DNA of 64,000 nt from Citrobacter freundii (GTDB taxonomy: Bacteria > Pseudomonadota > Gammaproteobacteria > Enterobacterales > Enterobacteriaceae). The stretch spans positions 2,356,001-2,420,000 of the forward strand of contig NZ_CP099222.1 of NCBI RefSeq assembly GCF_029717145.1. Reading direction: 5' to 3'. Position 1 is the stretch's first letter; each line of letters begins with the position of its first letter. Below the pieces are notes generated by a model, which did not search any database, was not told the origin of the DNA, and was given only the letters and a program-made list of their open reading frames with translations. The position numbers were made by a program, and so were the translations under genes. Positions 12,442 through 49,858 of this stretch are shown piece by piece.

Positions 12442-12579
12442 ATGCAACTTAATAGAATCGCACAAAGTTTACTCCTGGCTGGGTTATTAACATCGTTTGC
12501 CGTCCCTGTTATGGCTGCTGAAGCGCCAAAAGACGCCACTGCCGCCACGCAACAGGCCAACAATGCGCTCCTTCTCTGA
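12442..12579 (+). pseudogene. Detached signal-peptide fragment of the alkyl sulfatase gene
   Basis: ATG 12442, preceded by GAGAGGATTTACG, opens a 45-codon frame that reads MQLNRIAQSLLLAGLLTSFA then VPVMAAEAPKDATAATQQ, a clear Sec signal peptide with an Ala-x-Ala cleavage site, and ends at TGA 12577-12579. The mature enzyme continues in the next reading frame from about 12570 (FSDNTDF). YjcS-type sulfatases have signal peptide and enzyme in one frame, so one extra base, or two missing, around 12566-12576 (GCGCTCCTTCTCT) has split the gene. It may be a true mutation or an assembly error. Confidence 0.85.
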
Positions 12580-14404
12580 TAACACCGACTTTACTGACGC
12601 CCATAAAGGCTTTATCGCCCCGATTCCTCAGGAGGTGATTAAAGGTGAGCAAGGTAACGTGGTCTGGAACCCGCAACAGTACGCCTTTATTAAAGAAGGT
12701 GATAAATCACCGGATTCGGTTAACCCAAGCCTGTGGCGACAGGCTCAGCTAATCAACATCAGCGGACTGTTTGAAGTAACGGATGGCGTCTACCAGATCC
12801 GTAACCTCGATTTGTCGAACATGACGATTATCGAAGGTAAAGAAGGCATCACCGTGGTTGATCCGCTGGTCTCTGCTGAAACAGCTAAAGTAGGGATGGA
12901 TCTTTACTTTAAAAACCGGGGTAACAAACCGGTTGTAGCGGTAATTTACACCCACAGCCACGTTGACCATTATGGCGGCGTACGCGGCGTTGTTGTTGAA
13001 GCCGACGTGAAAGCGGGCAAGGTGAAGATTTATGCGCCAGCTGGCTTTATGGAAGCCGCGGTGGCAGAAAATATCATGGCCGGTAACGTCATGAGCCGTC
13101 GCGCCAGCTATATGTACGGTAACCTGCTAAAACCGGACGCCAAAGGCCAGGTCGGCGCGGGACTCGGCACCACCACCTCTGCGGGCACGGTTACTCTGAT
13201 TGCACCCACCAATATCATTGAGAAAGATGGGCAAAAAGAAGTTATCGACGGTCTGACCTATGATTTCATGTTGGCACCAGGCTCTGAAGCCCCGTCGGAA
13301 ATGCTGTGGTACATCGAAGAGAAAAAGCTGATTGAATCTGCCGAAGATGTCACCCATACCCTGCACAACACCTACTCGCTGCGCGGCGCTAAAATCCGTG
13401 AACCGCTGCCGTGGTCAAAATACATCAACGAAGCGATTGTGCGCTGGGGGGACAAAGCTGAAATCCTGATGGCGCAGCACCACTGGCCAACCTGGGGTAA
13501 CGACAAGGTCATGACACTGCTGAAAAGCCAGCGTGACTTGTACCGTTACATCAACGATCAAACGTTACGTATGGCCAACGAAGGTCTGACCCGTGACGAG
13601 ATCGCCGCGAACTTTAAACTGCCGGACTCGCTGGCACATACCTGGGCCAACCGGGGCTACTATGGCTCTGTTAGCCACGATGTGAAAGCCACCTACGTGC
13701 TGTATCTCGGCTGGTTTGACGGCAACCCGGCAACGCTTGATGAATTGCCACCGGAAGAAGCCGCGAAGAAATTCGTCGACTATATGGGCGGTGCCGATGC
13801 TATTTTGCAAAAAGCGAAAGCCGACTATGACCAGGGTAACTACCGCTGGGTGGCGCAGGTCGTGAGCAAAGTGGTGTTTGCCGATCCGAACAACCAGGCC
13901 GCGCGTAATCTGGAAGCCGATGCGCTGGAACAATTAGGCTACCAGGCTGAATCCGGACCGTGGCGTAACTTCTATCTCACCGGCGCACAAGAGTTGCGTA
14001 ACGGCGTGATCAAAGGGCCAACCCCGAATACCGCCAGCCCGGATACCGTCCGCGCGATGACGCCAGAAATGTTCTTTGACTATCTGGCCGTGCATATTAA
14101 CGGGCAGAAAGCAGGCGACGCGAAATCGGTATTCAACATCGACCTCGGTAGCGACGGCGGTAAATACAAGCTGGAGTTGGAAAACGGCGTGCTAAACCAC
14201 ACCGCCAATTCTGAAGCCAAGGACGCAGACGCAACTATCACGCTCAACCGTGACACGTTGAACAAAATCATCCTTAAGGAAGTGACGCTGAAACAGGCTG
14301 AACAGAGTGGCGATGTGAAGGTGACCGGTGACGGCGCTAAACTTGATTCTATGCTGGGCTACATGGATAAATTCGAGTTCTGGTTCAATATCGTTACCCC
14401 TTAA
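12497..14404 (+). CDS. Alkyl/aryl-sulfatase, YjcS/SdsA1 family (N-terminal frameshift)
   Basis: The long frame encodes a class III zinc-dependent alkyl sulfatase related to E. coli YjcS and Pseudomonas SdsA1, which hydrolyse SDS-like sulfate esters in the periplasm. The metallo-beta-lactamase motif THSHVDHYGG is near residue 152, with the further metal region HTLHNTYSLRGAK and the C-terminal sterol-carrier-like domain (from about residue 520) that ends EFWFNIVTP. Homology begins only at FSDNTDFTDAHKGF, so the listed upstream residues are out-of-frame sequence. The real start and signal peptide lie in another frame at 12442. ATG 12563 could start a cytoplasmic form but has no good ribosome binding site. 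Enzyme family is certain; whether the gene works is doubtful. Confidence 0.85.
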   Translation: MPSLLWLLKRQKTPLPPRNRPTMRSFSDNTDFTDAHKGFIAPIPQEVIKGEQGNVVWNPQQYAFIKEGDKSPDSVNPSLWRQAQLINISGLFEVTDGVYQIRNLDLSNMTIIEGKEGITVVDPLVSAETAKVGMDLYFKNRGNKPVVAVIYTHSHVDHYGGVRGVVVEADVKAGKVKIYAPAGFMEAAVAENIMAGNVMSRRASYMYGNLLKPDAKGQVGAGLGTTTSAGTVTLIAPTNIIEKDGQKEVIDGLTYDFMLAPGSEAPSEMLWYIEEKKLIESAEDVTHTLHNTYSLRGAKIREPLPWSKYINEAIVRWGDKAEILMAQHHWPTWGNDKVMTLLKSQRDLYRYINDQTLRMANEGLTRDEIAANFKLPDSLAHTWANRGYYGSVSHDVKATYVLYLGWFDGNPATLDELPPEEAAKKFVDYMGGADAILQKAKADYDQGNYRWVAQVVSKVVFADPNNQAARNLEADALEQLGYQAESGPWRNFYLTGAQELRNGVIKGPTPNTASPDTVRAMTPEMFFDYLAVHINGQKAGDAKSVFNIDLGSDGGKYKLELENGVLNHTANSEAKDADATITLNRDTLNKIILKEVTLKQAEQSGDVKVTGDGAKLDSMLGYMDKFEFWFNIVTP

Positions 14405-14693: not shown

Positions 14694-15698
14694 TTACGCG
14701 GACTCGCGTACGATAAGATGAAATCCGACATCGATAATATCGTCTTCACGAGGAATGTGCTCAATTCTGTCGGCGAGCAGCGAGGCGGCACGCTGTCCAA
14801 TGGCGCGGCGGTCTACGCTGACGGTGGTAATTGCCGGGCGATTGCTAGCGGCAAAATCAAGATCGCCAAAGCCCACCACTGCTAAATCGTGTGGTACCGC
14901 CAAACCACGGCTTTCCGCCTCCATAATTGCCCCCTGCGCGAGGGTATCCGAGCTACAGACAATCACATCAAATTCGCTGTCGGCAAAAAGCTGCGTCAAG
15001 CCACTGCGTCCCAACGCCAGCGAAGCCGGAAGCGGCACATCCACCTGCGGCACCGTGGTAATGCCATGGCGACTCAACACATCACAGAGTCCGTGTTTAC
15101 GCTGACCGGCGCGGCGATCGGCGGTCCATAACAGGCCCGGGCGACGATAACCTTTTGCAAGGAGATAGTCAGCCACCGCCTGCCCGACTTTTTCGTGCGA
15201 GAACCCCACCAGCATATCGATGGGGGTTGGCGTCAAATCCCAGATTTCCACTACCGGGATGGCGGCGTTGAGGATCACTTTTTTCAACTCAACGGTGTGG
15301 TGGATACCCGTGAGCACCACGCCGTCCGGTCGACGAGAAAGCAGCGTCGCTACCAGCTCGGCTTCGGTTTGCTGCGTATACCCAGCCACGCACAGCAAGA
15401 TGTGATACCCACGTTCAGCCAGTTCGTCGCTCAACGACTGAATGGTATCGACAAACATATTGTTGTTAATTTGTGGGACCACTACCGCAATCAGTTTGCT
15501 GCGACGTGAGGCCAACCCCCCCGCCAGTGCGTTGGGAATATATCCGGTGGCGCGAACGGCCTGCATCACCTTTTCTACTGTTTTCGGGCGCACCATTTGC
15601 GGGGTATTCAGCGCCCTGCTTACGGTCATTGGCGATAATCCCGCGGTGCGGGCAACATCTTCCAGCGTTGGTGCGCGGGGAGGTCTGGAATTTTTCAC
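14694..15698 (-). CDS. LacI-family regulator of the talarate/galactarate genes
   Basis: A 334-residue LacI/GalR repressor. The N-terminal helix-turn-helix reads [20 protein letters not shown] with the hinge helix following ([21 protein letters not shown]), then a periplasmic-binding-like sensor domain. GTG 15698 is the only reasonable start because a stop lies upstream in frame with no ATG between. It is divergent from the dehydratase gene at 16018 and the gap contains repeated GCGCAATCAT half-sites. It resembles GntR-type gluconate repressors of the family; a sugar-acid inducer, such as galactarate or L-talarate, is inferred from the neighbours. Confidence 0.87.
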
Positions 15699-18738: not shown

Positions 18739-19512
18739 TCACAGCACCTTCGACAAAAACTGCTGCGTGCGCGGATGACGCGGATGATTCAGTACCTGCT
18801 CGCTGCTACCCTGCTCGACGATTTTACCATCGACCATAAACACCACCTGATCCGCCACCTCCCGGGCAAAACCAATCTCGTGCGTCACCACCACTAACGT
18901 GGTACCGGACTTTGCCAGGCCTTTAATGACATCCAGCACTTCGCCCACCAGTTCAGGATCAAGCGCGGATGTCGGTTCATCAAACAGCATCACACGCGGG
19001 TTCAACGCCAGCGCACGAGCGATGGCGATACGCTGCTGCTGCCCGCCAGATAAATGGCGTGACCAGGCATCGGCTTTATGCCGCAAGCCTACCGCATCCA
19101 GCAGGGTTAATGCCCGCTCGGTAGCGGATTTCCGTGACGCGAGTCCGTGAGCCACCGGCGCTTCAATCAGGTTCTCCAGTACCGTTAAGTGCGGGAAGAG
19201 ATTAAAGTTCTGAAACACATAGCCCACGTTAATGCGCTGGCGCAGAATATCCGCCTCTTTCAGTTCATACAGTTTGTCTCCCTGTCGGCGATAACCTATA
19301 TAGTCGCCGTCGATCTGAATGAAGCCTTCATCGACGCGCTCCAGATGGTTGATTGCCCGCAGTAACGTGGATTTTCCCGAACCCGATGGCCCGAGAATAA
19401 CCGTTACCGTACCAGGCGGGATCTCCAGCGACACGTCATCCAGCGCTTTATGGCGGCCGAAGGACTTGCTGACGCCAGTAATGGAAATATGGCCTTCAGG
19501 CGAGTGGGACAT
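18739..19512 (-). CDS. Polar amino-acid ABC importer, ATP-binding subunit (S-modified cysteine operon)
   Basis: A 257-residue ATPase of the GlnQ/HisP group. Walker A is GPSGSGKST, the signature [15 protein letters not shown], Walker [15 protein letters not shown] and the switch histidine VVTHEIGFA. The start at 19512 ([19 protein letters not shown]) follows a strong AGGAGG six bases upstream; the frame is open for 35 more unrelated codons. It overlaps the permease gene by 17 bp and is the last of seven same-strand genes. Homologues in the Bacillus yxe and ytm operons (YxeO, YtmN/TcyN) import cystine-like or S-modified cysteine compounds; the substrate here is inferred from the operon. Confidence 0.9.
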
Positions 19513-20422
19513 GGACGACCTCCTGAGGCGTAAGTTGACGGCGACCTTTAACTGCGCGGCTGACGCGGGTGGTATTGATGGCTGAGCGCCGTTCGCTGCG
19601 GGCCAGCGCGCGTTCAACCAGGTGTTGAATCAGCGACAGAACGCTGGTGATCGCCAGATACCACACCGCCCCAACCATCAGCAACGGGATCACCTCCTGG
19701 GTACGGTTGTAGATCATCTGGATGGTGTAAAACAGCTCCGGCATCGCCAGCACGTAAACCATCGCCGTGCCTTTCGCCAGGCTAATAATTTCATTGAAGC
19801 CGGCAGGCAAAATGGTGCGCAGCGCCTGCGGCAGGATAATGCGCAGCGTGCGTCGCCAGGCAGGTAAACCCAGCGCTGCCGCAGCCTCATACTGGCCGTG
19901 ATCGACACCGAGAAATCCGCCACGAATAATCTCGGCGGTATAGGCGCTTTGCACCAGCGTCAAACCCACTACCGCGGTAGAAAACTGACCCAGTACATTG
20001 ATGGTCGCGAAGCTGCCCCACTGAACGTGGGTGAAAGGAATGCCAATCGTCAGCGTGTCGTACAGATACGAGAAATTGTATAAGATTATCAGCACCACGA
20101 TCAGCGGCAGCGAGCGAAACAGCCAGATGTATCCCCAGGCCAGGCTATTCAGCAGCCACGATGATGAGAGACGTGCCAGTGCCAGCAATCCACCGAACAC
20201 CACACTCAACAGTGTGCCGATAAGGGTCAGCAGCAACGTTTGCCCCAGACCGGACAAAATCACCGGGTCGAAGAACCAGCGGGCAAACACGCCCCACTCC
20301 CAACGCGGATTAAACGCCACCGACTGGATAATCACCGCCAGCACAAACAGCGCGACTATCGCACCTGCCGTGCGCATCGGATAGCGTGCCGGGACGACTT
20401 TGATGGTTTCCGTCGTTTTCAT
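19496..20422 (-). CDS. Polar amino-acid ABC importer, permease subunit
   Basis: A 308-residue His/Glu/Gln/Arg-type permease with membrane segments from about residue 18 and the ATPase-docking EAA loop ([25 protein letters not shown]) near residue 185. A single permease gene means the importer likely works with a homodimeric channel. It is long for the family because of an N-terminal segment of about 60 residues and a basic C-terminal tail (about 35 residues after the last helix) that overlaps the ATPase start. It belongs to the same operon as the binding protein at 20951-21883, with a GNAT gene in between. Confidence 0.9.
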
Positions 20423-20431
20423 TTTTTCTCC

Positions 20432-20941
20432 TCAGGCAATTTTTGCCTGACCTGCGATGGTCAACAGTTTGGTAAAGCGCAGCCGACCGTCAAACGGCGG
20501 CAGGCTGTACTCTTCCGGGTTACGTGCAATATCAAATTGTGGATCGTACCCCTGACGCAAATAGAGCTGAACGGCCTCCGGTTGGCGAAACCCTGTCGTC
20601 AGGTAGATACGGCTGTAGCCCGCCAGTAGCGCCCGTCGTTCCAGTTCCTGTACCACGTGCGCCGCCAGCCCCTGCTTACGCAGGGTGCTTTGGGTCCAGA
20701 TGCGTTTAATCTCAGCCGTGTCTTTGTCGTAAGGTTTGTAGGCCCCGGTGGCGATAATCTCGCCGTCACGCTCCAGCACCACAAAGATCCCCTGCGGCGC
20801 CAGATACCATTCGGTCAATTCAACTTCAGCATCACGGGAAAAATAATCGCCATAGCGCGCGGCATATTCAGCAAACAGACCGTTCAGAATCGGCTGCAGT
20901 TCTGCCGCCTCCGGCGAGACCACGCGGAATTGATCGCTCAC
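20432..20941 (-). CDS. GNAT-family N-acetyltransferase (YxeL-like role)
   Basis: A 169-residue GNAT protein. The acetyl-CoA-binding core is visible as AEIKRIWTQSTLRKQGLAAH then VVQELERRALLAGYSRIYL, with the C-terminal strand RLRFTKLL. In the Bacillus yxe operon the equivalent gene product N-acetylates S-(2-succino)cysteine before oxidative cleavage. The gene is wedged between the binding-protein and permease genes with gaps of 9 bp on each side, so it is certainly part of the operon. The acetyl acceptor is inferred to be the imported cysteine derivative. Confidence 0.85.
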   Translation of the reverse strand: MSDQFRVVSPEAAELQPILNGLFAEYAARYGDYFSRDAEVELTEWYLAPQGIFVVLERDGEIIATGAYKPYDKDTAEIKRIWTQSTLRKQGLAAHVVQELERRALLAGYSRIYLTTGFRQPEAVQLYLRQGYDPQFDIARNPEEYSLPPFDGRLRFTKLLTIAGQAKIA

Positions 20942-20950
20942 GTTGCCTCC

Positions 20951-21883
20951 TCAGTCGCCTAAACCGGCCGGGTTGATTTCTGATTGTGGAATGCGTTCCA
21001 CCCCCTCTCCCCAGCGATTCAAGACTTTGTCGTAGTCACCGTTGGCGATCACACCGTTAAGCGCGGTTTGCACCGGCTGTACCAATCCGCTGTCTTTTTT
21101 CAGCGTTACGGCGATATGCGCGGCCTTTGGCCAGCCACCGTCGACGCTACCCACGAGTTGCGTTTTTCCATTGAGCGCTGCTTTCCACGCGCCGATAACG
21201 TTAGGGCCAAAATAGGCATCGGCGCGGCCTGACTGTAGCGCCAGCGTCTGGGCGGCATCATCCTTGGTATAGACTGGCGTAAACGCCGGTAACCCGTTCT
21301 TCAGGTTCTCTTCATTCCATGCCAGAAGAATGGCTTCCTGGTTGGTCCCGGAGCCGACAATAATGCGCAGCCCGGCGATATCTTTTGCCTGTTCAATTTT
21401 GGTCAACTTACTGCCGGTTTTGACGTAAAAACCGAGTGAATCTTTACGATACGTGGCGAAGTCGAACTTTTCTTTGCGCGCTTTGGTGACGGTAATATTG
21501 CTGATCGCAGCATCATATTTGCCGGAAGCTACGCCCAACGGCCAGTCTTCCCATGACGTTGGCACCACGTTCAACTCCAGCCCCAGACTGTCGGCCACCA
21601 GACGGGCGATATCCGCCTCGCTGCCGATCAGCGTTTTATTGTCATCTGCAAACACCGTCAGCGGCGGCTGGCTCAGTCCGGCAATCGCCACCGTGAATTT
21701 ACCCGGTACGGCCAGCTGCAGCCTGGCGGGCAACTGCGCGATCGCCTGGGCGTTTTTCACCGTGTTAATCGGCGTTTTATTGGCCTCCAGGCTTACGCCC
21801 GTGCCGTTGATGGTGACATCGTTTGCCCAGACGGAAGCGCTGAAAGCCAGGGACAGCGCCAAAAGTAATGATTTTTTCTGCAT
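20951..21883 (-). CDS. Periplasmic amino-acid-binding protein of the S-modified cysteine operon
   Basis: A 310-residue class 3 extracellular solute-binding protein. It has a Sec signal peptide (MQKKSLLLALSLAFSASVWA, cleavage at about residue 20). The binding-domain hallmark DAAISNITVTKARKEKFDFA carries the conserved aspartate and arginine that hold the amino-acid backbone. It should deliver its ligand to the permease and ATPase encoded downstream. There is an unusual extra segment of about 50 residues between the signal peptide and the first lobe (LSQPPLTVFADDNKTLIG). Ligand inferred as cystine-like or S-substituted cysteine. Confidence 0.88.
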   Translation of the reverse strand: MQKKSLLLALSLAFSASVWANDVTINGTGVSLEANKTPINTVKNAQAIAQLPARLQLAVPGKFTVAIAGLSQPPLTVFADDNKTLIGSEADIARLVADSLGLELNVVPTSWEDWPLGVASGKYDAAISNITVTKARKEKFDFATYRKDSLGFYVKTGSKLTKIEQAKDIAGLRIIVGSGTNQEAILLAWNEENLKNGLPAFTPVYTKDDAAQTLALQSGRADAYFGPNVIGAWKAALNGKTQLVGSVDGGWPKAAHIAVTLKKDSGLVQPVQTALNGVIANGDYDKVLNRWGEGVERIPQSEINPAGLGD

Positions 21884-21895
21884 CGTATTTGTCTC

Positions 21896-23209
21896 TTATT
21901 GTGTGAATTGATTGGCAGGTGTCGCTAAGCCAAGGCTGGCACGCAAAGTCGTGCCGGGGTAGTCAAGACGGAACAGACCGCGCGCCTGAAGTAACGGGAT
22001 CACCTGTTCAACAAAGCGTGGGAAGGTGTCCGGCGTGCCGCCCTGAATGATAAATCCGTCGGCGGCTCTCTCATCGAACCACTGCTGCAGGCCGTCAGCC
22101 ACCTGTTCCGGCGTACCGCTAAAGCGGGGGCGTGGGCTGGCCGCTTCCAGCGCAGCCTGGCGCAGGGTTAACCCGCGCTCACGTGCATTGCGCTTGATTT
22201 CATCGGTGGTGCTGCGAAAACTGTTTTGCCCGAGATCGCCGAGCTCCGGGAACGGCGCATCAAGGGAATATTGCGCGAAATCGTGATGTTCAAAATAGCG
22301 GCCGAGGTAATTCAGCGCGTCGTTAATGGAAACCAGCGCTGCGGTGGTTTGATATTGCTGTTCAGCATCCTGCTCGTTGTCACCCACAATGACGCTGATG
22401 CCCTGGAAAATATGCAGATCATCGTCACCCCGCCCCGCTATTTCCAACTGGCTTTTCACATCCTGATAAAAAGCTTTGGCCTCTGCCAGTGATTCCTGAT
22501 GGGTGAAAATGGCGTCAGCGTGTGTTGCTGCTAATTTCTTTCCATCCTCAGAAGCGCCAGCCTGAAATATAATCGGCCGTCCTTGTGGTGTACGGGCAAT
22601 ATTTAAAGGGCCGGCAACCTGGAAATAATCGCCATGATGATTGAGCGTATGCAGTTTCTGCGGATTAAAGAATTCACCGCTCGTTTTATTACGGGTAAAC
22701 GCATCCTCTTCCCACGAATCCCACAATCCTTTGACCACCTGCAAATATTCATCGGCAATACGGTAGCGTTGAGCATGTTCCGGGTGCTGCGCGCGAGAAT
22801 AGTTCTTTGCTGAACCTTCCAGGGGCGATGTCACCACATTCCATCCAGCGCGCCCCTGGCTGAGATGATCGAGGCTGGCAAACTGTCTCGCGGTGGTAAA
22901 CGGTTCGCTGTATGACGTTGAAACCGTGCCCACCAGTCCCAGATTGTTGGTGATGCTCGCCAGTGCCGACAATACCGTTAGCGGTTCAAAGCGATTTAAA
23001 AAATGTGGGATGGATTTCTCATTGATATACAAACCATCGGCAACAAAAATAAAATCCAGTTTACCTTGCTCGGCAATTAATGCAGTGTCTTTGACAAACT
23101 CAAAATTAATACTGGCATCGGCAAGTGCTGCTGGATGACGCCATGCTGACATATTCCCGGAGGCACCATGCAGAATAGTACCCAACCGTAATTGCCTTTT
23201 TTTAGCCAT
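21896..23209 (-). CDS. FMN-dependent monooxygenase, NtaA/SnaA/DszA (YxeK-like) family
   Basis: A 437-residue two-component flavin monooxygenase of the bacterial luciferase superfamily. Family features are the N-terminal [18 protein letters not shown], the strand [42 protein letters not shown] (typical NtaA/SnaA/DszA block at about residues 110-140) and the C-terminal [14 protein letters not shown]. Bacillus YxeK, of this family, oxygenates N-acetyl-S-(2-succino)cysteine to release N-acetylcysteine. Needs reduced FMN from a separate reductase, not encoded in this operon. It lies 12 bp ahead of the binding-protein gene. Exact substrate is inferred. Confidence 0.88.
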
Positions 23210-23234
23210 AGTACCCCCTACCCAACAGGTAAAA

Positions 23235-24356
23235 TTAAAGGTGTGTGAATGCCGTTTTCGCTAAATGCGTAAAGTACTGCGCGGCGGGTTCAATTAATCG
23301 TTCGTCAGGATTAAATCCCGGATGGTGTAATCCGTATTCGCTGGCGCTGCCAATACTGACAAATGCCCCGGGCGTATTTTGCAGATAGACGGCAAAATCC
23401 TCTCCCCCCATATGCAGATCGGCATAGTGCGTCGTGTACCCGGAGGTTTTTGCCACCTCGGTGGCAATCTCTGCCCAGCGCGAATCGTTGACCAGCGCCG
23501 TGGGGCCCGCGTGCCAGATAACATCAATTTGTGCGCCAAAGGCGTGGGCAAATCCGGCGGCGATGTCATTCACCCGTGATTTGACCTGCTGCTGAACGAC
23601 TGTGCGATGGGTTCTGAGCGTCCCTTCCAGCTCAACGGATTCTGGCAGCACGTTCCACGTGTTGCCGCCCTGAATACGGGTCACGCTCAACACCACCGAA
23701 TCCAGCGTGTTAACCTCCCGGCTGGCCACGCCTTGCAACACCGTCACCAGTTGGCTGGCAAGCAGAATGGCATCTTTGCCTTCATGTGGCCGAGCGGCAT
23801 GTGCGCCTTTGCCATGGATACGCAGCACGACACGATCGACGTTGGCATAAAATGCGCCGCCACGCGTGGCAAACTCACCCACCGGTAAGCCAGGCTCGTT
23901 GTGCATACCGAAAATCGCCGCTACGTTTTGTAGCGCCCCGGCGCGGATTAACGCTTTCGCGCCACCAAAGTTTTCTTCCGCAGGCTGAAACAGGATACGA
24001 ACCCGCCCCGGTAATGCGCTTTCTTGCTGTTTCAACAACAGCGCAGCACCGAGCATGACGCTGGTATGCACGTCGTGTCCGCAGGCGTGCATGACCCCCG
24101 GCGTTACGGAGCGAAACGCCACATCGGCATTCTCTTCTATCGGTAAGGCGTCGATATCGGCCCGCAGGGCGATAACATCGTCTCCTCGCCCAACCTCAGC
24201 CACCAGACCGGTGCTCAGTTCAAAGGGCAAAATGTTGACGTCGGCAGCACGCAACCAGTCGCGAATACGTGCTGTAGTCGCCACCTCCTGTAAGGACAGC
24301 TCCGGATACTGGTGCAGTTCACGGCGCCAGCCGATAAGCGTCGAGGCCAATGACAT
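23235..24356 (-). CDS. M20-family N-acyl amino-acid amidohydrolase (YxeP-like)
   Basis: A 373-residue metallo-aminoacylase. Metal-binding motifs of the M20D group are present: [13 protein letters not shown] near residue 70, [17 protein letters not shown] near 90, [12 protein letters not shown] near 125 and the C-terminal [12 protein letters not shown] near 320. It should remove an N-acetyl group from cysteine or an S-modified cysteine after the oxygenase has acted, the role of YxeP and related SndA-type enzymes. The start shares one base with the stop of the upstream gene (TGATG), so translation is coupled. Confidence 0.88.
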
Positions 24357-25354
24357 CAGACGACCTCCACAGCGGAATGGGCCTGCGCCAACAAATGCAG
24401 CGATGTCAGACGCGCATGACCTTCTGCTAGCGGGGTATCGATAATAAATTCATCAATGCCGTACTGCGCGTGCAGGCTGTTCAGCTTTGCGGCCACATCT
24501 TCGGCCGTTCCGTGCAACAACGCCTGCGCTCGACGGGCAATTTTTCGTGGCACGCTACCCGCCTGTGCGGCGAATGCCAACGCCTGCTCTTCACTGGCCA
24601 CCGTCACGCGTTGACCATCTTCCAGCTCAACGCCCCATATTTGTACGTTCTCCGCCAATTGCGCGGCAGTCTCCGGATTGTTCGCCACAATCACCTGCAC
24701 GGCGACAATCGTCGGGCGCACACTGTTGGCTTGCCAGTAAGTCAGAACATCGCGTAGCAGCGCCGGATCACCGTTCAGGTGCGCGGCAAAGATAAAATTC
24801 CAATCAGACTCTGCCGCCAACTGTGCGCTTGGCACGCTGGCCCCCAACACGAATCTTTGCGGCGGAGAGGGCGGGATCGGCGTCGGAAATACCGCGTGCC
24901 CGGTTTCCGTCCCGGTCAATGCCAGCCAGGCATCGAGCTGCGAAAGCTGCTCGGCAAAGCTGCCCTTTTCACTCTGATGTAGCCCCTGCTGGAGCGCCTG
25001 CGTTGACAGCGGTAGACCGCCTGGGGCTTTCCCCACGCCGAGATCAACGCGCCCTGGGGCCAGTGATGCCAGTAAATTGAAGTTTTCCGCTACTTTATAC
25101 GGGCTGTAATGTTGCAGCATAACGCCACCAGAGCCAACGCGGATACGTTGTGTTTGGCCAAGGATCCAGGCGATCACCAGCTCCGGTGACGGACTGGCTA
25201 GCTGCGGCGTATTGTGATGCTCCGCTATCCAAAAGCGGTGGTATCCCCACGCCTCTGCCAGCTGTGCCAGCTGTAGCGTACGGGCAAGCGCAATGGCGGC
25301 AGTTTCGGTTTCCCCTATGGGGCTTTTATCGAGAATACTCAGGCAATATGACAT
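24356..25354 (-). CDS. Luciferase-like (LLM class, MsnO8-type) flavin oxidoreductase
   Basis: A 332-residue single-domain LLM oxidoreductase beginning MSYCLSILDKSPIGETETAA. Typical family motifs are YHRFWIAEHHNTPQLASPSP near residue 40, IRVGSGGVMLQHYSPYKVAE near 75 and GRVDLGVGKAPGG near 100. It is the first gene of the seven-gene operon and has a weak ribosome binding site (GTGAG at some distance). A second oxygenase of another family (21896-23209) is in the same operon, so the two may act on different S-alkyl groups or successive steps. No substrate can be named from sequence alone. Confidence 0.83.
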   Translation of the reverse strand: MSYCLSILDKSPIGETETAAIALARTLQLAQLAEAWGYHRFWIAEHHNTPQLASPSPELVIAWILGQTQRIRVGSGGVMLQHYSPYKVAENFNLLASLAPGRVDLGVGKAPGGLPLSTQALQQGLHQSEKGSFAEQLSQLDAWLALTGTETGHAVFPTPIPPSPPQRFVLGASVPSAQLAAESDWNFIFAAHLNGDPALLRDVLTYWQANSVRPTIVAVQVIVANNPETAAQLAENVQIWGVELEDGQRVTVASEEQALAFAAQAGSVPRKIARRAQALLHGTAEDVAAKLNSLHAQYGIDEFIIDTPLAEGHARLTSLHLLAQAHSAVEVV

Positions 25355-25850
25355 GTTACAGGCTCACGATTGTTAACATGTCGTTATTATTAAATTATCA
25401 AACAACCATTCAGAAACATTTAATTCACATTTACTCAGCTAAAAAATCGCTAACCAACCTTACTTCTACTACGGGTAAGGTCTCTCCTGGGCAGGTATAA
25501 GAAGCAGAAAAAACATACCCTACAAAATATAATAGGGTTACTGTTTATGCCAGAAACCCAACAATATCATTTTGCGGTAGTTTTATTTTTGCGCACTATA
25601 TTTATGCTGAATTTAATTTAAGTCAGCTGAAGAATCTCTTTAGGTTATACACTTGTATTTATTGTTTCATATTTATGACCATTAACAATCTGCATACAAC
25701 AAAATTTTTATTTGAAATACTTTCGTCAGGCTAATGATTAGTAGAGAATGCAACGTTTCTTATTAAAAATGGTTTAAAACAGCTTTTTAATATCCCCTGG
25801 TATTATTCCGGGGATTTTTGTATGACTTGAACATACCACCAGGGACCGCC
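25355..25850. other. A+T-rich divergent control region, 496 bp
   Basis: This non-coding stretch separates the S-modified cysteine operon (leftward) from the PAS chemoreceptor gene (rightward) and must hold both promoters. It is strongly A+T-rich. ACCCTA and TAGGGT at 25517-25538 form an inverted repeat with a ten-base spacer, a possible operator. A hairpin with a T run ends at 25819. I see no regulator gene for the operon nearby and no convincing long open frame. Confidence 0.5.
25792..25819 (+). terminator. Hairpin and T run just upstream of the chemoreceptor gene
   Basis: ATCCCC (25792-25797) and GGGGAT (25810-25815) form a stem with a 12-base loop, followed by a run of five T (25815-25819). 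It has the form of an intrinsic terminator for rightward transcription and lies 31 bases before the chemoreceptor start, where no upstream rightward gene ends. It may close a short leader RNA or attenuate the chemoreceptor gene. Confidence 0.55.
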
Positions 25851-39852: not shown

Positions 39853-42008
39853 GCAAGACGTTAAACACCGCACAGGCCGCCATCGAATGGGTAACGGACG
39901 TGCGTGCACGCGCGGCACGCCTGGATGATGAAGCAGATTCCCTGCTGGCTCAGCTCACGTTAGCCGCGGTCAATGAAACCGCGATCAATGAGACATTCGC
40001 CGCGCCGGGTTGTGTGGGATTGTACGGCCACTCACAGGCGGCGAAAGCGCATTTGCTCTGCGCATTGTGCAGCGATTCGGGTGGCAAACTGAACATCATC
40101 ACGCCGGATCGCAGCATCGATTACTTTACGCACATTAACCCCGGCCATGCGCCAACCAACATGGCTATTCGCTTCACCCGCGACGAAACCCCATTGGACA
40201 GCGCATGGCCGCTGCGCCTGCGGTTGATGAGCGAGGCGGAGCTGGTTCAGCTGTTTATCGCCCAGTTCTGTGCGTTACCTGACAACCGTCAGGTTGAAAA
40301 AGCGATCATTGAGACGCGGTTAGAAAAATGGCAGACGCTGCGCCAGCGCCATCCTGTGCCGGGGATCTGCGCACAAGACGTGGCCACCATCGCGCGTTTC
40401 TGGCGTTCTCGTGTTCCCTCAAACCAGCAGCAAATTGACGATGCGCTGTGGCACCAGTTTGCCATGCTGCTTCCGGCACTGGATCTCACCACCCGGGCAC
40501 ATGCCTGGGCATTACTGTGGGGAGAACAGCCAGAACTCACGCAGCAGTTTCTGGCACTGGCGCATACGCTGCAGCAAACCGGGCATGCCAAAGAATTAGC
40601 TGCGCCGTTTAGCCTGCTGGTCGACCATTTCGGCTTGCCCGCCGAAAGCTTTCTCACTCAGGCGGCACTGACCGGGAACGACGCGCCAAGTGATGTGGTG
40701 GTGCATCCCATTGCCGACAATCAGTTGCTTAATGCGGTCAGCCTGTCGCTGGAATCACTGGCGCTGTTGACCCGCGAACTGGTACTGACGGTAGAAGACG
40801 CGGTGCTGGAGAGCACGGACCTGCTGGATATCCCCCTGGCACCGGATGCGCATCCACACCCGCTATGGCGAGCAAAATTAGGCTGGATGCTGGAGCATTA
40901 CCGCCAGTGTCTGCAACCTGATGTGTTAGTCATCTGCAACGCGGTATCCACCCGTTCGCAGACGCCGACCGTCACCCGCACACTACTCGGTTGGATCAAC
41001 GATACCCAGCCGCTGCACGATGCTGCGTTACCGGGCGTGGTGTGGGCCATTACCCCACAGGATGCACGTTTTAGCACCCAACAGAACCTCGATGAAGCCG
41101 TTCAGCAATTACTGGGCAAACCCGGACTGCACTGGGGCACGCTGCAGGCGCTGGATAAGCACAGTTTACAGCGGCTGGTTGAATGGTTGTCGCAGGCCAC
41201 TTCGCCCGCTCAGCGTCAGGCTCGGTTTATCTCTCTGCACGAGCAGTTCCAGCAGCGAATTCGCGCCACGTTAATGAGCTGGTTACACACGGATGACGAG
41301 ACGACCGGGGCGAGTGAATCACTTATTCGCCAGTTGCAAGCTCAGGCGGCAAAACATGGCGAGTTGCTGGAGGGACTACTGCCGCCTATGCGCAGCGTGG
41401 AGTCGTTGTTACGTATTCAACAACCGCGCGAGGAGCAGGTTAGCGGCTTATTTAATGATGCGATCGACCTGTTTGCTGACGCGCGAGATACGTCTCACCC
41501 GCAAGAGAGTGAAGAGACCGGATACCTGGCGCATAAAATGTGGATCAACCATGTGCGCCAGTGGTGTCGAAATGAGAGTAACGCGCGTCGCCTGCACCTG
41601 GAGCCGCAAACTTTAAGGCAGGTTGCTGACATCCTGGTGACCACCAGTTACCGGCTGGAGATGCCACAACGCCTGCACGCTATTATGCAGCGCGAGAACG
41701 TCTGCGCAGCGCAGTTGCACGCGGATATCGGTGATTTTATTACCTGGCTTGGGTTTGCTCGCGTTGCCGAGGAACTGCGCCCTGCCAGCAGGATCCTAAA
41801 AGGTGCCGCTATCTTTAGCGCCCCACCGCAACAACCGATGCGTCGACTGGCAAAACTGGACGAGCAACCTCGGCATGGTGCCAGCCGATACGTGTATGAC
41901 TGGTTGGTTGCCCTGTACACCCGCGCCAATGAAAACGTCGGCTATCAGCATCCGCTGGACGTGACTGACGCTGACAGGTTGCGATTAATCGCGCTGCTAA
42001 AGGCCTGA
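39849..42008 (+). CDS. srfC: SrfC, putative virulence effector/partner protein
   Basis: A 719-residue soluble protein of the SrfC family, coupled to srfB by an ATGA overlap. Near residue 55 it has CVGLYGHSQAAKAHLLCALC, which looks like a worn P-loop: the glycines and a lysine are present but the GKS/T end is lost. The rest is rich in helices (LFIAQFCALPDNRQVEKAII, VLAL-type repeats) without membrane segments. It has been listed as a virulence effector in Salmonella from its SsrB-dependent expression, but no enzymatic function can be read from the sequence. It ends the srfABC operon. Confidence 0.86.
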   Translation: MSKTLNTAQAAIEWVTDVRARAARLDDEADSLLAQLTLAAVNETAINETFAAPGCVGLYGHSQAAKAHLLCALCSDSGGKLNIITPDRSIDYFTHINPGHAPTNMAIRFTRDETPLDSAWPLRLRLMSEAELVQLFIAQFCALPDNRQVEKAIIETRLEKWQTLRQRHPVPGICAQDVATIARFWRSRVPSNQQQIDDALWHQFAMLLPALDLTTRAHAWALLWGEQPELTQQFLALAHTLQQTGHAKELAAPFSLLVDHFGLPAESFLTQAALTGNDAPSDVVVHPIADNQLLNAVSLSLESLALLTRELVLTVEDAVLESTDLLDIPLAPDAHPHPLWRAKLGWMLEHYRQCLQPDVLVICNAVSTRSQTPTVTRTLLGWINDTQPLHDAALPGVVWAITPQDARFSTQQNLDEAVQQLLGKPGLHWGTLQALDKHSLQRLVEWLSQATSPAQRQARFISLHEQFQQRIRATLMSWLHTDDETTGASESLIRQLQAQAAKHGELLEGLLPPMRSVESLLRIQQPREEQVSGLFNDAIDLFADARDTSHPQESEETGYLAHKMWINHVRQWCRNESNARRLHLEPQTLRQVADILVTTSYRLEMPQRLHAIMQRENVCAAQLHADIGDFITWLGFARVAEELRPASRILKGAAIFSAPPQQPMRRLAKLDEQPRHGASRYVYDWLVALYTRANENVGYQHPLDVTDADRLRLIALLKA

Positions 42009-42016
42009 CGTCGTCA

Positions 42017-42190
42017 TTAGAAAAGAGAAAACAGGAGTGCGACGGGAAAGCTCATCGGCCACGTCGCCCCGACTAATACCGCGCTGAGAAAGCGAATACG
42101 CTTTTTATCGCGCGATAGAAACCAGGTGATGATAGCCGCGATGGCGGCCATTACCGCATAAAAAACCAGCATGTTTTGATACAAAGACAT
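42017..42190 (-). CDS. ortT: OrtT, small membrane toxin-like protein (orphan of GhoT family)
   Basis: A 57-residue membrane protein beginning MSLYQNMLVFYAVMAAIAAI and ending FPVALLFSLF, which matches E. coli OrtT (YdcX) almost residue for residue. Two hydrophobic helices flank the charged turn SRDKKRIR. OrtT is an orphan GhoT-like toxin that lowers membrane potential and was linked to growth under antimicrobial stress that hits tetrahydrofolate. The gene is convergent with srfC, eight bases from its stop. In E. coli ortT and ydcY are neighbours; here srfABC and a binding-protein gene lie between. Confidence 0.93.
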   Translation of the reverse strand: MSLYQNMLVFYAVMAAIAAIITWFLSRDKKRIRFLSAVLVGATWPMSFPVALLFSLF

Positions 42191-42382
42191 TTAGGGCATC
42201 CGGGCCAGAAGGGAAAATCGCGCGCAATATGCTCTTTTTTATGACACACATCAAGTTTTATTCATTTTTTTAAGAAAACCGGCGAGAAAACAACCGTTCT
42301 CCGTAATGTTCAGATTTCGTACTATTGCGGATAGTTTTAACCCGTACTATACCCATAAGGGTTAAATCGAAAGGTGGCAAAA

Positions 42383-42478
42383 ATGAATGTTTCCAGTAAA
42401 ACCGTAGTACTGATAAATCTCTTTGCTGCTGTAGGACTTTTCAGCCTGATATCCGCAAGGTTTGGCTGGTTTGCTTGA
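42383..42478 (+). CDS. yncL: YncL, 31-residue membrane protein
   Basis: The 31-codon frame reads MNVSSKTVVLINLFAAVGLF and then SLISARFGWFA, the enterobacterial small protein YncL, a single membrane helix. AAAGGTGG lies eight bases before the ATG. In E. coli it is stress-induced and its role is unknown. It is divergent from ortT and the gap of about 190 bp holds both promoters. Confidence 0.92.
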   Translation: MNVSSKTVVLINLFAAVGLFSLISARFGWFA

Positions 42479-42834
42479 TGTGACTCTTGTTGATTAATTG
42501 CAGCGTCTGCTGGCAGAGAGAACATTCTCTCTGCCATTGATGTGCGATCTTCCCACTGCTTCACCTGCCAGTAAATTATCCTTAGTGTGTAATAGCCCTA
42601 ACCTTTCTGCGGTAATGAGATAGCGAAACCCGGCATGCATTGCCCCCTAAACTGTTCCGTAACCAAATTTTCCATTCCGTTGCGTTCTGACCTCACGCAC
42701 TGCCCTGTCTCATCAATAATCCATTCGCACTGTTCTCAACGCTTCGAAAGCCTAAATTTTTAGACTTACAAAATCATTTATTTCAGCCCAATTTATGTAA
42801 TGGCATAATCAGGCAGGCTAAAGTGAGGGCGAAA
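42479..42834. other. Non-coding stretch with strong hairpin after yncL
   Basis: GGCAGAGAGAA (42512-42522) and TTCTCTCTGCC (42525-42535) form a perfect eleven-base-pair inverted repeat with two bases between, 33 bases after yncL. There is no T run, so it is either a Rho-aided mRNA end or a binding site. The remaining 300 bases up to the XRE gene hold no open frame or repeat that I can recognise and mark the left edge of the accessory block. Confidence 0.55.
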
Positions 42835-43419
42835 ATGGATAAAACATCTCAAAATCAGATAGTAGATAGCGACATTGCGCGTTTATTGCTTAAACACAGA
42901 AAGGCTCGAAATTTGACTGTAACAGAACTTGCCCAACGATCGGGCGTCAGTCAGGCCATGATTAGCAAAGTTGAACGAGGCACCTCCAGTCCCAGTGCCA
43001 CGATACTGAGTCGTTTAGCCAATGCCATGAATATAACGCTATCAAAACTTTTTGCGGAGCTTGAGCAGCATCAGAACTCACTGGTTCGTTTCGCGGATCA
43101 GCAGCAGCATTGGACAGATGAACAATCAGGCATTACCCGCTGGTCACTGTCCCCTGCGGGGGCATGCCCGGAGCTTATAAAAGTTGAAATTCCTGCTATG
43201 GGTCAACTGACGATACCCGCCTCTGCGAATGAGCATCTTTCCGGGCAAACACTGTGGATGTTGAGCGGCAGCCTTGATTTTCGGGTTAATCATCAGACCC
43301 ATCACTTACAAGCCGGTGACTGTCTTGCCCTTACCTTTGCAAGCGAGTGCCAAATGAGCAATCCTGATAGCGTACAGAGTTGTTCTTACATCGTCGCTTT
43401 TAGTCAAAAAAATCAATGA
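42835..43419 (+). CDS. XRE-family regulator with C-terminal cupin (beside a GNAT gene)
   Basis: A 194-residue protein with helix-turn-helix at about residues 15-68 (NLTVTELAQRSGVSQAMISK, VERGTSSPSATILSRLANAM) and a cupin at about 110-185 (LTIPASANEHLSGQTLWMLS, HHLQAGDCLALTF). It has the same layout as the regulator at 31759-32334 and can be aligned with it along the whole length (for example RFADQQ/RFANQP after the HTH). ATG 42835 follows GTGAGGGCGAAA; an in-frame GTG at 42823 is less likely. The convergent GNAT gene carries two operator-like repeats upstream, so that gene is its likely target. Confidence 0.86.
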   Translation: MDKTSQNQIVDSDIARLLLKHRKARNLTVTELAQRSGVSQAMISKVERGTSSPSATILSRLANAMNITLSKLFAELEQHQNSLVRFADQQQHWTDEQSGITRWSLSPAGACPELIKVEIPAMGQLTIPASANEHLSGQTLWMLSGSLDFRVNHQTHHLQAGDCLALTFASECQMSNPDSVQSCSYIVAFSQKNQ

Positions 43420-43439
43420 TATTGCCCCTACTTAAGGGG

Positions 43440-43883
43440 TTACATCACATTAGACTTGCTTAGATGTAACAGGGGGTAAGGCCTTCCCTGATTGTCCTGC
43501 TCGGAACGGCCTGTAACCTGAAAGCCCATATGCTGATAAAACCCTATAGCCTGCTGATTTTGTTCATTTACATCGACGCTTAAATCAGGATGCAGATCCA
43601 AAGCATATGAGATCAACCGTTTTCCAACGCCAAGTCCGCGAGCAGAAGCATCGACAAAAAGTGCCTCCAGATGGCTCTCATGTAGAAACATAAATCCTAG
43701 CGGTTGGTCTTCCTGATTTGTTGCAACCCATACAGGGGTTTCTGAAAAAAAACTGACAACGTCTTTTTCGATCTCTTGTCGGTCGTGGGTTGTCAGAAAA
43801 TCGTGCGTGGCATCTACAGAATTTTTCCAAATTTGGATAATTTCTGACGCTTCAGAGGGTCGTGACATTCTGATTTTTAACAT
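43440..43883 (-). CDS. GNAT acetyltransferase, YjaB-like
   Basis: A 147-residue GNAT protein similar along its length to E. coli YjaB (SVDATHDFL near the start, NEQNQQAIGFYQHMGFQVTG then RSEQDNQGRPYPLLHL at the end). The acetyl-CoA loop is ARGLGVGKRLISYAL. YjaB was described as a protein-lysine acetyltransferase, but a small-molecule acceptor is equally possible. It is convergent with the XRE-cupin gene, 20 bp apart, and its upstream region holds two direct repeats that match the operator of the other XRE gene in the window. A+T content is higher than in the backbone genes. Confidence 0.87.
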   Translation of the reverse strand: MLKIRMSRPSEASEIIQIWKNSVDATHDFLTTHDRQEIEKDVVSFFSETPVWVATNQEDQPLGFMFLHESHLEALFVDASARGLGVGKRLISYALDLHPDLSVDVNEQNQQAIGFYQHMGFQVTGRSEQDNQGRPYPLLHLSKSNVM

Positions 43884-43943
43884 TTTATCTACCTTAAGTG
43901 GTCATTACTTTGTGTATTTACATACAAAATGAGCCGACTTAAG

Positions 43944-43974
43944 TTTACTATAGTGAAATTAAATTTACTATAGT
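43944..43974. promoter_or_regulatory. Two direct repeats, likely operators of the XRE-cupin regulator
   Basis: TTTACTATAGT occurs at 43944-43954 and at 43964-43974, exactly 20 bases apart, which places both on one face of DNA. The core ACTATAGT is itself a palindrome. The first copy extends to ACTATAGTGAA, the same 11-mer as at 32343-32353 by the other XRE-cupin gene. They lie 61-91 bases before the GNAT start. Confidence 0.6.
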
Positions 43975-44071
43975 ACTTTAATTGTTATACCTTATCATTC
44001 CCCATGAGAAGTGCTAACACACCGGTTAGTCTGATCCTCATCATCGTCTGCGACAATGATCCTGGGCTTTT

Positions 44072-44115
44072 TCAAACCGACTTTTCGCTCCTCGCTCACA
44101 GCCAGCAGCGGACAT
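44072..44115. repeat. Dispersed repeat, copy A
   Basis: Contains CAAACCGAC (44072-44080), CGCTCCTCGCTCACAGC (44085-44101) and GCCAGCAGCGGACATT (44100-44115). The middle block is found exactly in copy B at 46309-46325, the last block exactly in copy C at 48555-48570, so this copy links the two others. Confidence 0.65.
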
Positions 44116-44385
44116 TCCACCTATGACAGTTCGCTTTGTGCCAAATGCGGACTTCCTTTGCAAAGCGACCCCACCAAAATTTAATGTGAATTGGAGCAAT
44201 TATCATGCTGAATTATTCGATTTATAGATGTATATTTTAGTTCTGACGAACAGTATTCTTTTTGTCAGCTTTTTAAATTTTAGTTACTTCCGTTTATTAT
44301 TAAAAGTTTAGGGCATAAGGGATAACCCATAATTAAAGCATGGAAACCCTTTTGCTGAACATGTCATGCATAAGGAGTGATGCAA

Positions 44386-46248
44386 GTGAGTTTCCCTCTA
44401 GAATTGACAGCGCAAATTGCTGGTCACAATGAAAATTTCAATCGCAAGGTCACCTTAAACAGAGGTCTTACAGTTCTACTCGGCCCAAATGGCTCTGGAA
44501 AAACACATCTTTTGAGGGGGCTCAAGCAAAGTCTTAGTCAGCATACGAATGGAAAGTATGTGCGCTTTCTCTCTGCTGGACGAATGGGGATGTTGGAGCA
44601 GTATAGATCAGACTTTGACGGGCATCGTGGAGGCTCACCACAGTACGACTACGCAACTTATGGTAGCAAGAGTGATGCTGTTCGCAGACATCAGATGGAA
44701 ACTATTAATGGCGATTTCCAAACGCTTGCTGAACGGGCTGATATTTTAATTAAAATTCAGGAGAGACTTCGGAAGTTATTCAAGCGCGACATTCTTATTG
44801 AATGGGATGGTGGATCACTAAAAATATTATTTTCGCGATTGGACATAGAAGCAAAATCATACTCGTCAGGCAGAGAGGCATCCGGATTGATGCATCTGGT
44901 TGGGATTTTATCTGCACTTTATGATGATGATGTAGGGGCGCTTCTTCTAGATGAACCAGAGGTTTCCTTGCATCCTCAGTTACAGGCATTTCTTCTTCAT
45001 GAAATCCTCAGTGTCTCGGGCCACCCGTCTGAGGGAGGTAATAAAAAGATTGTTATCATCGCTACTCATTCAACAGAAATGCTCCAAATTCAGAAACCGG
45101 AAGATTTACTATCTCTTGTCTTCTGTTATGACCTGATTAGTGAGCCAGTGCAAATTCCAGCTGACGCTGGCGAGCTCAGGAACAAAAAAGTACAAAACTT
45201 AATTGCTCGTCTCGGACAAGAGCATAAGTTATCATTGTTTTCCAAACGGCCTTTATTAGTTGAAGGCCCCTCTGATGTAATGATTTGCAGTGCGCTTGCA
45301 AACAAACTTGATATACATCTTGAAGCTGCCGGATCACAGTTATTACCTGTGATTGGTAAAGGGCAGATGCCAACCGTGGCAAAATTATTGCGTTTACTCG
45401 GCAAAAGCCCAGTTGCGTTGGCGGACGCTGATGGAATCGCTGATGGTCTTGATCTTGTCAATTCATACCTTAATGATAACCCCACCGCAGAAACGCGAGC
45501 CAGTGAGTTAGGGTATCGATCCTCGCAACAAATGGTTAGTGCTATATTCACAGATTTTTGCAAATTGGTAGATTGCCGGTGGAATGAAATTTCTGCAATC
45601 GCCGAATTGCACCCGTATTGGGTGAACAAGAAAACCGAGGAAGTGGCACAAGCAAAGCGCCGCTCTGCTTTCTGTACACTTTTCATTATTGATGATAATG
45701 AATTAGAAAATTTAGCTAAGGACAATGAGTGGAGTAGTATAAAGATCCGTTTAAAAGTGCTTCTTGACCTGCTGGAACAGTGTGGCCTATTTATTTTACG
45801 CAAAGGTTCAGTAGAGTCTTACTATCAAAATTCAGATCCATTTACTTCAATTGGAAAGCCAAGTGCGGCTGTTGGTGAAATTGACCATATCAATCAGTTA
45901 TCGCTTGACGATGTTAACACCGCATATTCAGATTTGATCCGCTGCGTCCAGCATGCCTCGAGCACTGAAGTAATATGTGAGGCTGATGCACTGAGAGATC
46001 TTTTACTTTCAATTGTTGCACCAGCACATGCCAGACTAAAGAGTGGTGAATCATCAACAAACTTCAATATCTTGGCTCGTTCAATTTTGGGTGAGCGTTC
46101 TAAAATATTTGGTTTGGCTATAGAAGGTGAAAAACTTGTTATCTCAATCGAGAGTAACATTCTTAATGTTAGAGGTTTCCCCGTATCTATTGGAAAAGAT
46201 GATGATGTACTAAAATGTATCAATGCAGCCCTTGCCTCTAATCTTTAA
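44386..46248 (+). CDS. OLD-family ATP-dependent nuclease (AAA ATPase + TOPRIM)
   Basis: A 620-residue single protein. Walker A is GPNGSGKT (33-40), the ABC-like signature YSSGREASGL is near residue 160, Walker B GALLLDEPEVSLHPQ near 185 and the H-loop IIATHSTEML near 225. A TOPRIM domain follows with LLVEGPSDVMICSAL near 290 and DADGIADG near 350, expected for a metal-dependent nuclease. This is the order of OLD family proteins, often antiphage. GTG 44386 stands nine bases from AAGGAG; ATG 44380 is too close to it. No helicase or reverse transcriptase partner gene is next to it. The gene is clearly A+T-richer than the backbone. Confidence 0.85.
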   Translation: MSFPLELTAQIAGHNENFNRKVTLNRGLTVLLGPNGSGKTHLLRGLKQSLSQHTNGKYVRFLSAGRMGMLEQYRSDFDGHRGGSPQYDYATYGSKSDAVRRHQMETINGDFQTLAERADILIKIQERLRKLFKRDILIEWDGGSLKILFSRLDIEAKSYSSGREASGLMHLVGILSALYDDDVGALLLDEPEVSLHPQLQAFLLHEILSVSGHPSEGGNKKIVIIATHSTEMLQIQKPEDLLSLVFCYDLISEPVQIPADAGELRNKKVQNLIARLGQEHKLSLFSKRPLLVEGPSDVMICSALANKLDIHLEAAGSQLLPVIGKGQMPTVAKLLRLLGKSPVALADADGIADGLDLVNSYLNDNPTAETRASELGYRSSQQMVSAIFTDFCKLVDCRWNEISAIAELHPYWVNKKTEEVAQAKRRSAFCTLFIIDDNELENLAKDNEWSSIKIRLKVLLDLLEQCGLFILRKGSVESYYQNSDPFTSIGKPSAAVGEIDHINQLSLDDVNTAYSDLIRCVQHASSTEVICEADALRDLLLSIVAPAHARLKSGESSTNFNILARSILGERSKIFGLAIEGEKLVISIESNILNVRGFPVSIGKDDDVLKCINAALASNL

Positions 46249-46305
46249 CTTATTACTCGAGCGGACCTGCATGAAGAGCCCTTAAGTAGGTTATTCCATG
46301 TAGAC

Positions 46306-46329
46306 GTCCGCTCCTCGCTCACAGCGGAC
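46306..46329. repeat. Dispersed repeat, copy B
   Basis: GTCCGCT (46306-46312) and AGCGGAC (46323-46329) are perfect inverted repeats enclosing CCTCGCTCAC; the block CGCTCCTCGCTCACAGC is shared with copy A. It is followed by a further degraded unit (GTCCGCTCCGTGCCAGGAGC). It lies 58 bases after the OLD nuclease gene and has no T run typical of a terminator. Confidence 0.65.
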
Positions 46330-46384
46330 CTTCAGATCCGTTAGTTAGTCCGCTCCGTGCCAGGAGCGGGTTTCTGACAAATCC

Positions 46385-49615: not shown

Positions 49616-49858
49616 GTTAATGTCATATTCCTAAGTCTGTGCATGTTGAATTTTCATTTTTGAGAGTTTATCAGAGGGAGGGTTTGGAGCTTTAAAAAGG
49701 GCTGATGTCGTCAGATAGATTCTAAATCTGCTCAAGGCAATACATTTTCTCTATAATTATGGGCATTGCTAACTGAAAGTGGCTGTATTTTAATATCCAC
49801 ATTCAGTACTGTGTAGCGTCTAAATTGAGAATAATGTTTTCATATTTGAGAGGAGTCG

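Follow-up and report, generated by a model that had tools for sequence, protein, structure and literature searches.

A seven-gene operon of Citrobacter freundii as a probable variant of the CmoO/CmoJ pathway of S-alkylcysteine salvage

A 64,000-nucleotide (nt) stretch of the Citrobacter freundii contig NZ_CP099222.1 (positions 2,356,001 to 2,420,000), referred to here as the window, carries a minus-strand operon of seven genes. The operon probably serves the salvage of S-alkylcysteines (thioethers) by a pathway of the CmoO/CmoJ type known from Bacillus subtilis. Reading from position 25354 down to 18739, the genes encode an LLM flavin enzyme of the MsnO8 family, an M20 amidohydrolase, an NtaA/DmoA-type flavin mononucleotide (FMN) monooxygenase, a binding protein (SBP_bac_3), a GNAT protein, a permease, and an ATPase, with spacings of -1, 25, 12, 9, 9, and -17 nt between consecutive genes. 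An earlier note on this DNA had listed seven tightly packed genes of these classes without a local regulator. The open reading frames (ORFs), span, order, and NCBIfam/Pfam classes agree with that list, and the window ORFs and a domain scan gave no regulator gene within the operon or immediately adjoining it. The seven ORFs are confirmed as real and form one tight operon. Related loci were collected as the best 80 of 279 genome-contig loci by monooxygenase similarity, plus two from a plasmid collection; many of these 82 similarity-chosen loci are close relatives, and counts over them are not independent. In 56 of the 82, all seven genes follow one another in this order on a single strand, successive matches being no more than 154 nt apart, and because the order recurs in this way the arrangement is beyond chance.

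Judged by its sequence relationships, the FMN monooxygenase is an orthologue of CmoJ and not of YxeK. Its best match in the PDB was B. subtilis YtnJ (1yw1, 564 bits), which is named CmoJ in the literature. The B. subtilis genome used as a reference (G333) carries an identical YtnJ and was the source of both the ytm/cmo and the yxe loci. The window monooxygenase shares 56.7% identity with CmoJ and 48.7% with YxeK; between CmoJ and YxeK the figure is 48.1%. Close homologues of YxeK are those with more than 50% identity in the available text of Hillmann et al. (PMC9706529), a limit under which the window protein falls. In a careful tree of 30 rows, the CmoJ clade includes the window monooxygenase with 100/100 support and YxeK stands apart. 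A quick tree of 85 rows, hand-picked from 130 family ORFs, again placed the protein in the CmoJ clade, apart from YxeK. A clade of the window monooxygenase with YxeK was rejected, as joining five window-type and three YxeK rows cost 188 log-likelihood units (approximately unbiased test, p-AU 6.4e-5).

The LLM protein matched TIGR03558 with 334.6 bits (cut-off 166.95) and is, by the same kind of comparison, an orthologue of CmoO. Searches of the two whole genomes gave it and B. subtilis YtmO/CmoO as each other's best hit, and the two are 41.6% identical. A 34-row tree unites the window protein with CmoO and 27 relatives from CmoJ-type loci (clade support 100/99) and leaves the other four B. subtilis matches and the window genome's own second copy outside. 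Among the loci other than the 4-kb loci L086-L103 and those of the window genome itself, 93 genes score better with CmoJ and 14 better with YxeK; a CmoO-type LLM gene lies no more than 5 kb away from 74 of the former and from 1 of the latter. The single YxeK-scoring locus (L120) also carries a CmoJ-type gene adjoining the LLM gene, and the B. subtilis yxe locus contains no LLM match. The LLM enzyme is thus the usual partner of CmoJ. Orthologues of CmoO and CmoJ stand side by side in loci of Enterobacterales, Burkholderia, Paenibacillus, and Bacillus with differing neighbours, a recurrence that ties the two enzymes together. As a separate observation, two Paenibacillus loci (L082 and L083) have a tandem pair of CmoJ-type genes next to a CmoO-type LLM gene.

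At the family level, the M20 protein is assigned to the N-acetylcysteine deacetylases. It matched TIGR01891 with 368.7 bits, its best PDB match was YxeP (1ysj), and it is 45.8% identical to YxeP and 44.3% identical to SndA. The stretches HACGHD, FQPAEE, and GGEDF occur in the protein, and the first two of these are common to both B. subtilis enzymes. A 23-row tree placed it with neither SndA nor YxeP in particular. YtnL (SndA), ScmP (YxeP), and YhaA are described in the accessible text of PMC12757645 as N-acetylcysteine deacetylases in vitro that are redundant in vivo, and the same text regards as unclear which substrate precisely the ytn cluster acts on. Because SndA and YxeP deacetylate the same product, the predicted role of the M20 enzyme is the same either way.

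The proposed pathway begins with the binding protein, permease, and ATPase, which would import a cysteine S-conjugate for N-acetylation by the GNAT enzyme. The CmoO-type enzyme would then oxidise the sulfur to a sulfoxide. With reduced FMN and oxygen, the CmoJ-type enzyme may cleave the C–S bond, releasing an aldehyde along with N-acetylcysteine sulfenic acid. The latter would be reduced by general cell thiols, and the M20 enzyme would set cysteine free. Each of these reactions is predicted from the B. subtilis pathway, and the substrate range is likewise inferred. In B. subtilis, according to the available portion of PMC10863075, CmoO converts the N-acetylated S-alkylcysteine to its sulfoxide, which CmoJ splits into an aldehyde and N-acetylcysteine sulfenic acid; reduction and deacetylation of the sulfenic acid follow. 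The flavin reductase would be encoded elsewhere, and the operon may be controlled by sulfur supply. The earlier note had proposed the same outline, in which a cysteine S-conjugate is imported, acetylated, oxidised, and deacetylated. That outline stands as the best interpretation, whereas the Bacillus yxe operon on which it was modelled is contradicted by the placement of the monooxygenase. The LLM enzyme, which the note had regarded as an addition, is no novelty because the known cmo pathway already has CmoO as its expected sulfoxidase. Of the two protein families that the note had proposed to check, the M20 protein falls in the expected one, and the GNAT protein is not clearly of SnaA or YxeL type by profile.

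Like the B. subtilis cmo operon, the window operon combines orthologous CmoO and CmoJ with an M20 deacetylase, a GNAT protein, and an ABC importer; the permease and ATPase of the window importer score best with cystine models, below cut-off. The cmo operon has two permeases and two binding proteins, against a single permease and, in the Citrobacter loci, a single binding protein; no protein of the window operon corresponds to CmoI, RibR, or YtnM, the gene order differs, and the GNAT is not SnaA-type by profile. The B. subtilis operon is also adjoined by a LysR-type gene, which we take to be YtlI, and the window operon has no neighbouring regulator gene. Set against B. subtilis, the operon differs in its GNAT, its simpler importer, a second binding protein that some loci have and others lack, and the lack of CmoI, RibR, and YtnM. 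Since the SnaA relationship of the GNAT was not borne out by profile, the operon is regarded as a variant of CmoO/CmoJ cysteine salvage and is claimed only to work like the cmo pathway.

The GNAT protein is the one real departure from the known pathway, and it looks like a replacement or may serve another function. In single-sequence searches, it and SnaA were reciprocal best hits at 27 bits each way. A 12-row profile of the GNAT group searched against the B. subtilis genome ranked another GNAT at 2,898 kb first (1.1e-7, a match spanning one stop) and SnaA after it (8.9e-4), and YxeL was not among the matches. With clean ORFs, the same profile gave 31.9 bits for the other B. subtilis GNAT, 20.7 for SnaA, and 8.7 for YxeL, and an 18-row profile agreed. 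The identification as SnaA from reciprocal best hits was dropped after these profile searches. In a pairwise comparison with YxeL, the protein showed 29% identity over 86 amino acids (E 5e-6), and membership of the YxeL family is likewise not indicated; SnaA and YxeL themselves are 46% identical. A profile–profile comparison, run without controls, gave a probability of 97% for a 141-column alignment of the GNAT group to the SnaA/YxeL group, which shows GNAT kinship. Structure prediction gave a plain GNAT fold (mean predicted local distance difference test score 90.1), and its best fold match, 3lod, gives no substrate hint; that the fold matches listed include no SnaA or YxeL structure carries no weight. 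Most simply, a different GNAT has assumed the acetylation step in the Enterobacteriaceae-type operon, and it is conceivable that the protein has a role other than acetylation.

Several observations weigh against the assignment to S-alkylcysteine salvage. The GNAT is not a clear member of the SnaA family by profile, and its proposed acetylation step is suggested by its position in the operon. A SnaA/YxeL-type GNAT gene does occur directly upstream of CmoJ in six Rahnella/Rouxiella loci, and a CmoO-type LLM gene precedes it in five of these; the sixth (L066) has no LLM match within 8 kb upstream. These loci share the same two flavin enzymes with the window operon (CmoJ 69–71% identical), and differ from it in this GNAT and in having the transporter and M20 genes outside the run. 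Homologues of CmoI (glutaredoxin-like), RibR, YtnM, and a flavin reductase were not found among the seven operon proteins by NCBIfam/Pfam. Furthermore, 19 of the 93 CmoJ-type genes, including several from Burkholderia and some others, lack an LLM gene inside 5 kb of the available DNA, and no sulfur-regulator site was identified.

Of the importer parts, the permease and the ATPase come closest to cystine systems. The best NCBIfam row was the cystine permease PRK15100 for the permease (130.4 bits) and the L-cystine ATPase TcyN PRK11264 for the ATPase (294.5 bits), each under its cut-off. For the binding protein, the best rows were TIGR01096 (lysine/arginine/ornithine, 76.0 bits) and then the cystine-binding protein PRK11260 (71.6 bits), both below cut-off. 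Alternatively, the importer may be a plain system for cystine or another amino acid, with the flavin enzymes serving an unrelated purpose and sharing only the promoter. The resemblance to cystine systems agrees with this idea, as does the uptake of cystine and cysteinopantetheine by TcyJKLMN of the B. subtilis operon (PMC11487621, available text). It is nevertheless the least probable of the explanations considered, given the recurrence of paired CmoO and CmoJ orthologues in four groups of bacteria with different neighbours.

Breakdown of S-(2-succino)cysteine, as by the B. subtilis yxe/scm operon, with an extra LLM enzyme, is a further explanation. The window operon shares an acetylase, a monooxygenase, an M20 deacetylase, and a single-permease importer with yxe, where the ytm locus has two permeases. 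Scores are also slightly better to the yxe locus for the ATPase (241 versus 224 bits) and the permease (96 versus 84 bits), and the M20 protein is slightly nearer to YxeP than to SndA. The monooxygenase, however, lies in the other clade and below the identity limit for YxeK, the CmoO-type LLM is a mark of CmoJ-type genes, and the GNAT is different from YxeL. Of the proteins of the B. subtilis ytm and yxe loci, moreover, the only ones that the binding protein matched, and weakly, were the two binding proteins of the ytm locus. A 2SL lyase in place of YxeK is not indicated either, as Pfam matched no lyase domain in any of the seven proteins. Altogether, this explanation is very unlikely. Somewhat less so, but still unlikely, is the scavenging of mercapturates, in which conjugates already acetylated would be imported, CmoO and CmoJ would strip the S-group, the M20 enzyme would deacetylate, and the GNAT would be used otherwise, for example to trap free conjugates. 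The operon occurs in gut- or plant-dwelling genera, and the difference between the GNAT and SnaA would fit such a use. The action of CmoO and CmoJ on N-acetylated forms, described in the portion of PMC10863075 cited above, also fits. The binding protein, however, belongs to a polar amino acid family. In addition, 62 loci have a binding-protein match, and in all but one of these (61) the GNAT gene sits between the genes for binding protein and permease; it is therefore probably coupled to import, so that acetylation after uptake would matter.

The window genome measures 4.74 Mb, and its monooxygenase is 100% identical to the copy of Citrobacter gillenii UMG736 (L006). In a family sample of 246 genomes, which includes reduced genomes, a full-length monooxygenase with at least 69% identity occurred in 49, one of which (G533) has an internal stop; in another genome (G503), beyond these 49, the gene is split in two pieces. 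The E. coli collection gave no match to the whole operon in a near search or to the CmoJ gene in a distant search, and a locus titled Escherichia sp. ESNIH1 (L043) carries the operon. A second binding-protein gene follows the ATPase gene in 42 of the 82 loci, including 39 of the 56 full operons, and in none of the 10 Citrobacter loci. In loci inspected, this second protein is 47–56% identical to the first (e.g., L016, 12490-13383). One operon-bearing sequence (L004, CP125156.1, Klebsiella pneumoniae, 5.37 Mb) is filed as a plasmid and resembles a chromosome in size, and several of its operon genes are absent from the distributed gene table.

No paper on this operon in Enterobacterales was found in the open literature, subscription papers being mostly beyond the search. 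In the available text of PMC10863075, the CmoO/CmoJ pathway is placed in soil bacteria. If our assignment is right, this pathway reaches Klebsiella, Citrobacter, Enterobacter, Raoultella, and Pantoea. Genes that bear no more than the annotation 'LLM class flavin-dependent oxidoreductase', 'M20 peptidase aminoacylase family protein', or 'GNAT family N-acetyltransferase' would then gain a function, and gene content alone could mislabel such operons as S-(2-succino)cysteine loci. A more speculative idea, which we hold only tentatively and consider a possible rather than a probable one, is that gut- and plant-dwelling Enterobacterales use the operon to remove the S-groups of S-alkylcysteines from the diet, of cysteine sulfoxides from plants, or of mercapturic acids from the host. 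The acetyltransferase would be a new recruit, and the two binding proteins present in most genera would broaden the range of substrates. If true, bacteria would in this way reverse glutathione-type detoxification and recover the sulfur as cysteine.

Upstream of the operon, a short block and its neighbouring positions are kept across the window, Citrobacter, and eight Klebsiella/Raoultella upstream sequences. Klebsiella/Raoultella sequence farther upstream fails to align with the window, and in a ten-sequence Citrobacter alignment the distal part also aligns, L011 excepted. A search of the window genome for the block pattern gave one match without mismatch, at the operon, and one with 2 mismatches, in a region containing an ORF that is aldo/keto-reductase-like by eye. 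The coordinates of the operon features are given in Table 1, together with the Rahnella/Rouxiella GNAT genes.

Table 1. Features of the operon in the window, and SnaA/YxeL-type GNAT genes of Rahnella/Rouxiella in the numbering of their own loci
Feature	Position	Strand	Remark
CmoO-type LLM flavin monooxygenase (MsnO8 family)	24356..25354	-	predicted N-acetyl-S-alkylcysteine sulfoxidase
M20 amidohydrolase	23235..24356	-	predicted N-acetylcysteine deacetylase, SndA/YxeP type
CmoJ-type FMN monooxygenase	21896..23209	-	predicted N-acetyl-S-alkylcysteine sulfoxide C-S monooxygenase
Periplasmic amino-acid binding protein, SBP family 3	20951..21883	-	PF00497
GNAT acetyltransferase	20432..20941	-	PF00583; predicted N-acetylation of imported S-alkylcysteine
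ABC permease, polar amino acid type	19496..20422	-	NCBIfam best row PRK15100
ABC ATPase	18739..19512	-	NCBIfam best row PRK11264
Conserved upstream element	25412..25430	-	candidate regulatory or promoter-proximal site
SnaA/YxeL-type GNAT, L064	7405-7965
SnaA/YxeL-type GNAT, L065	2390-2950
SnaA/YxeL-type GNAT, L066	7369-7965
SnaA/YxeL-type GNAT, L071	7382-7972
SnaA/YxeL-type GNAT, L075	7372-7932
SnaA/YxeL-type GNAT, L078	7372-7932

The start of the ATPase gene was taken as the ATG at 19512, which overlaps the end of the permease gene, and a longer ORF with a TTG start at 19617 was set aside. At its downstream end, the operon faces a convergent MFS gene, and on the upstream side lie a PAS/MCP chemoreceptor gene and an amino acid permease gene. 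A LacI-type gene (14694-15698) is set off from the operon by an MFS and an enolase-family gene. About 4 kb past the operon end, and not part of the operon, the plus strand encodes another sulfur-related enzyme, an alkyl sulfatase (12497-14404) with a metallo-beta-lactamase fold and Alkyl_sulf_dimr and Alkyl_sulf_C domains. Positions 42000-50000 of the window have a GC content of 0.43–0.47, down from about 0.54, and may represent an acquired region.

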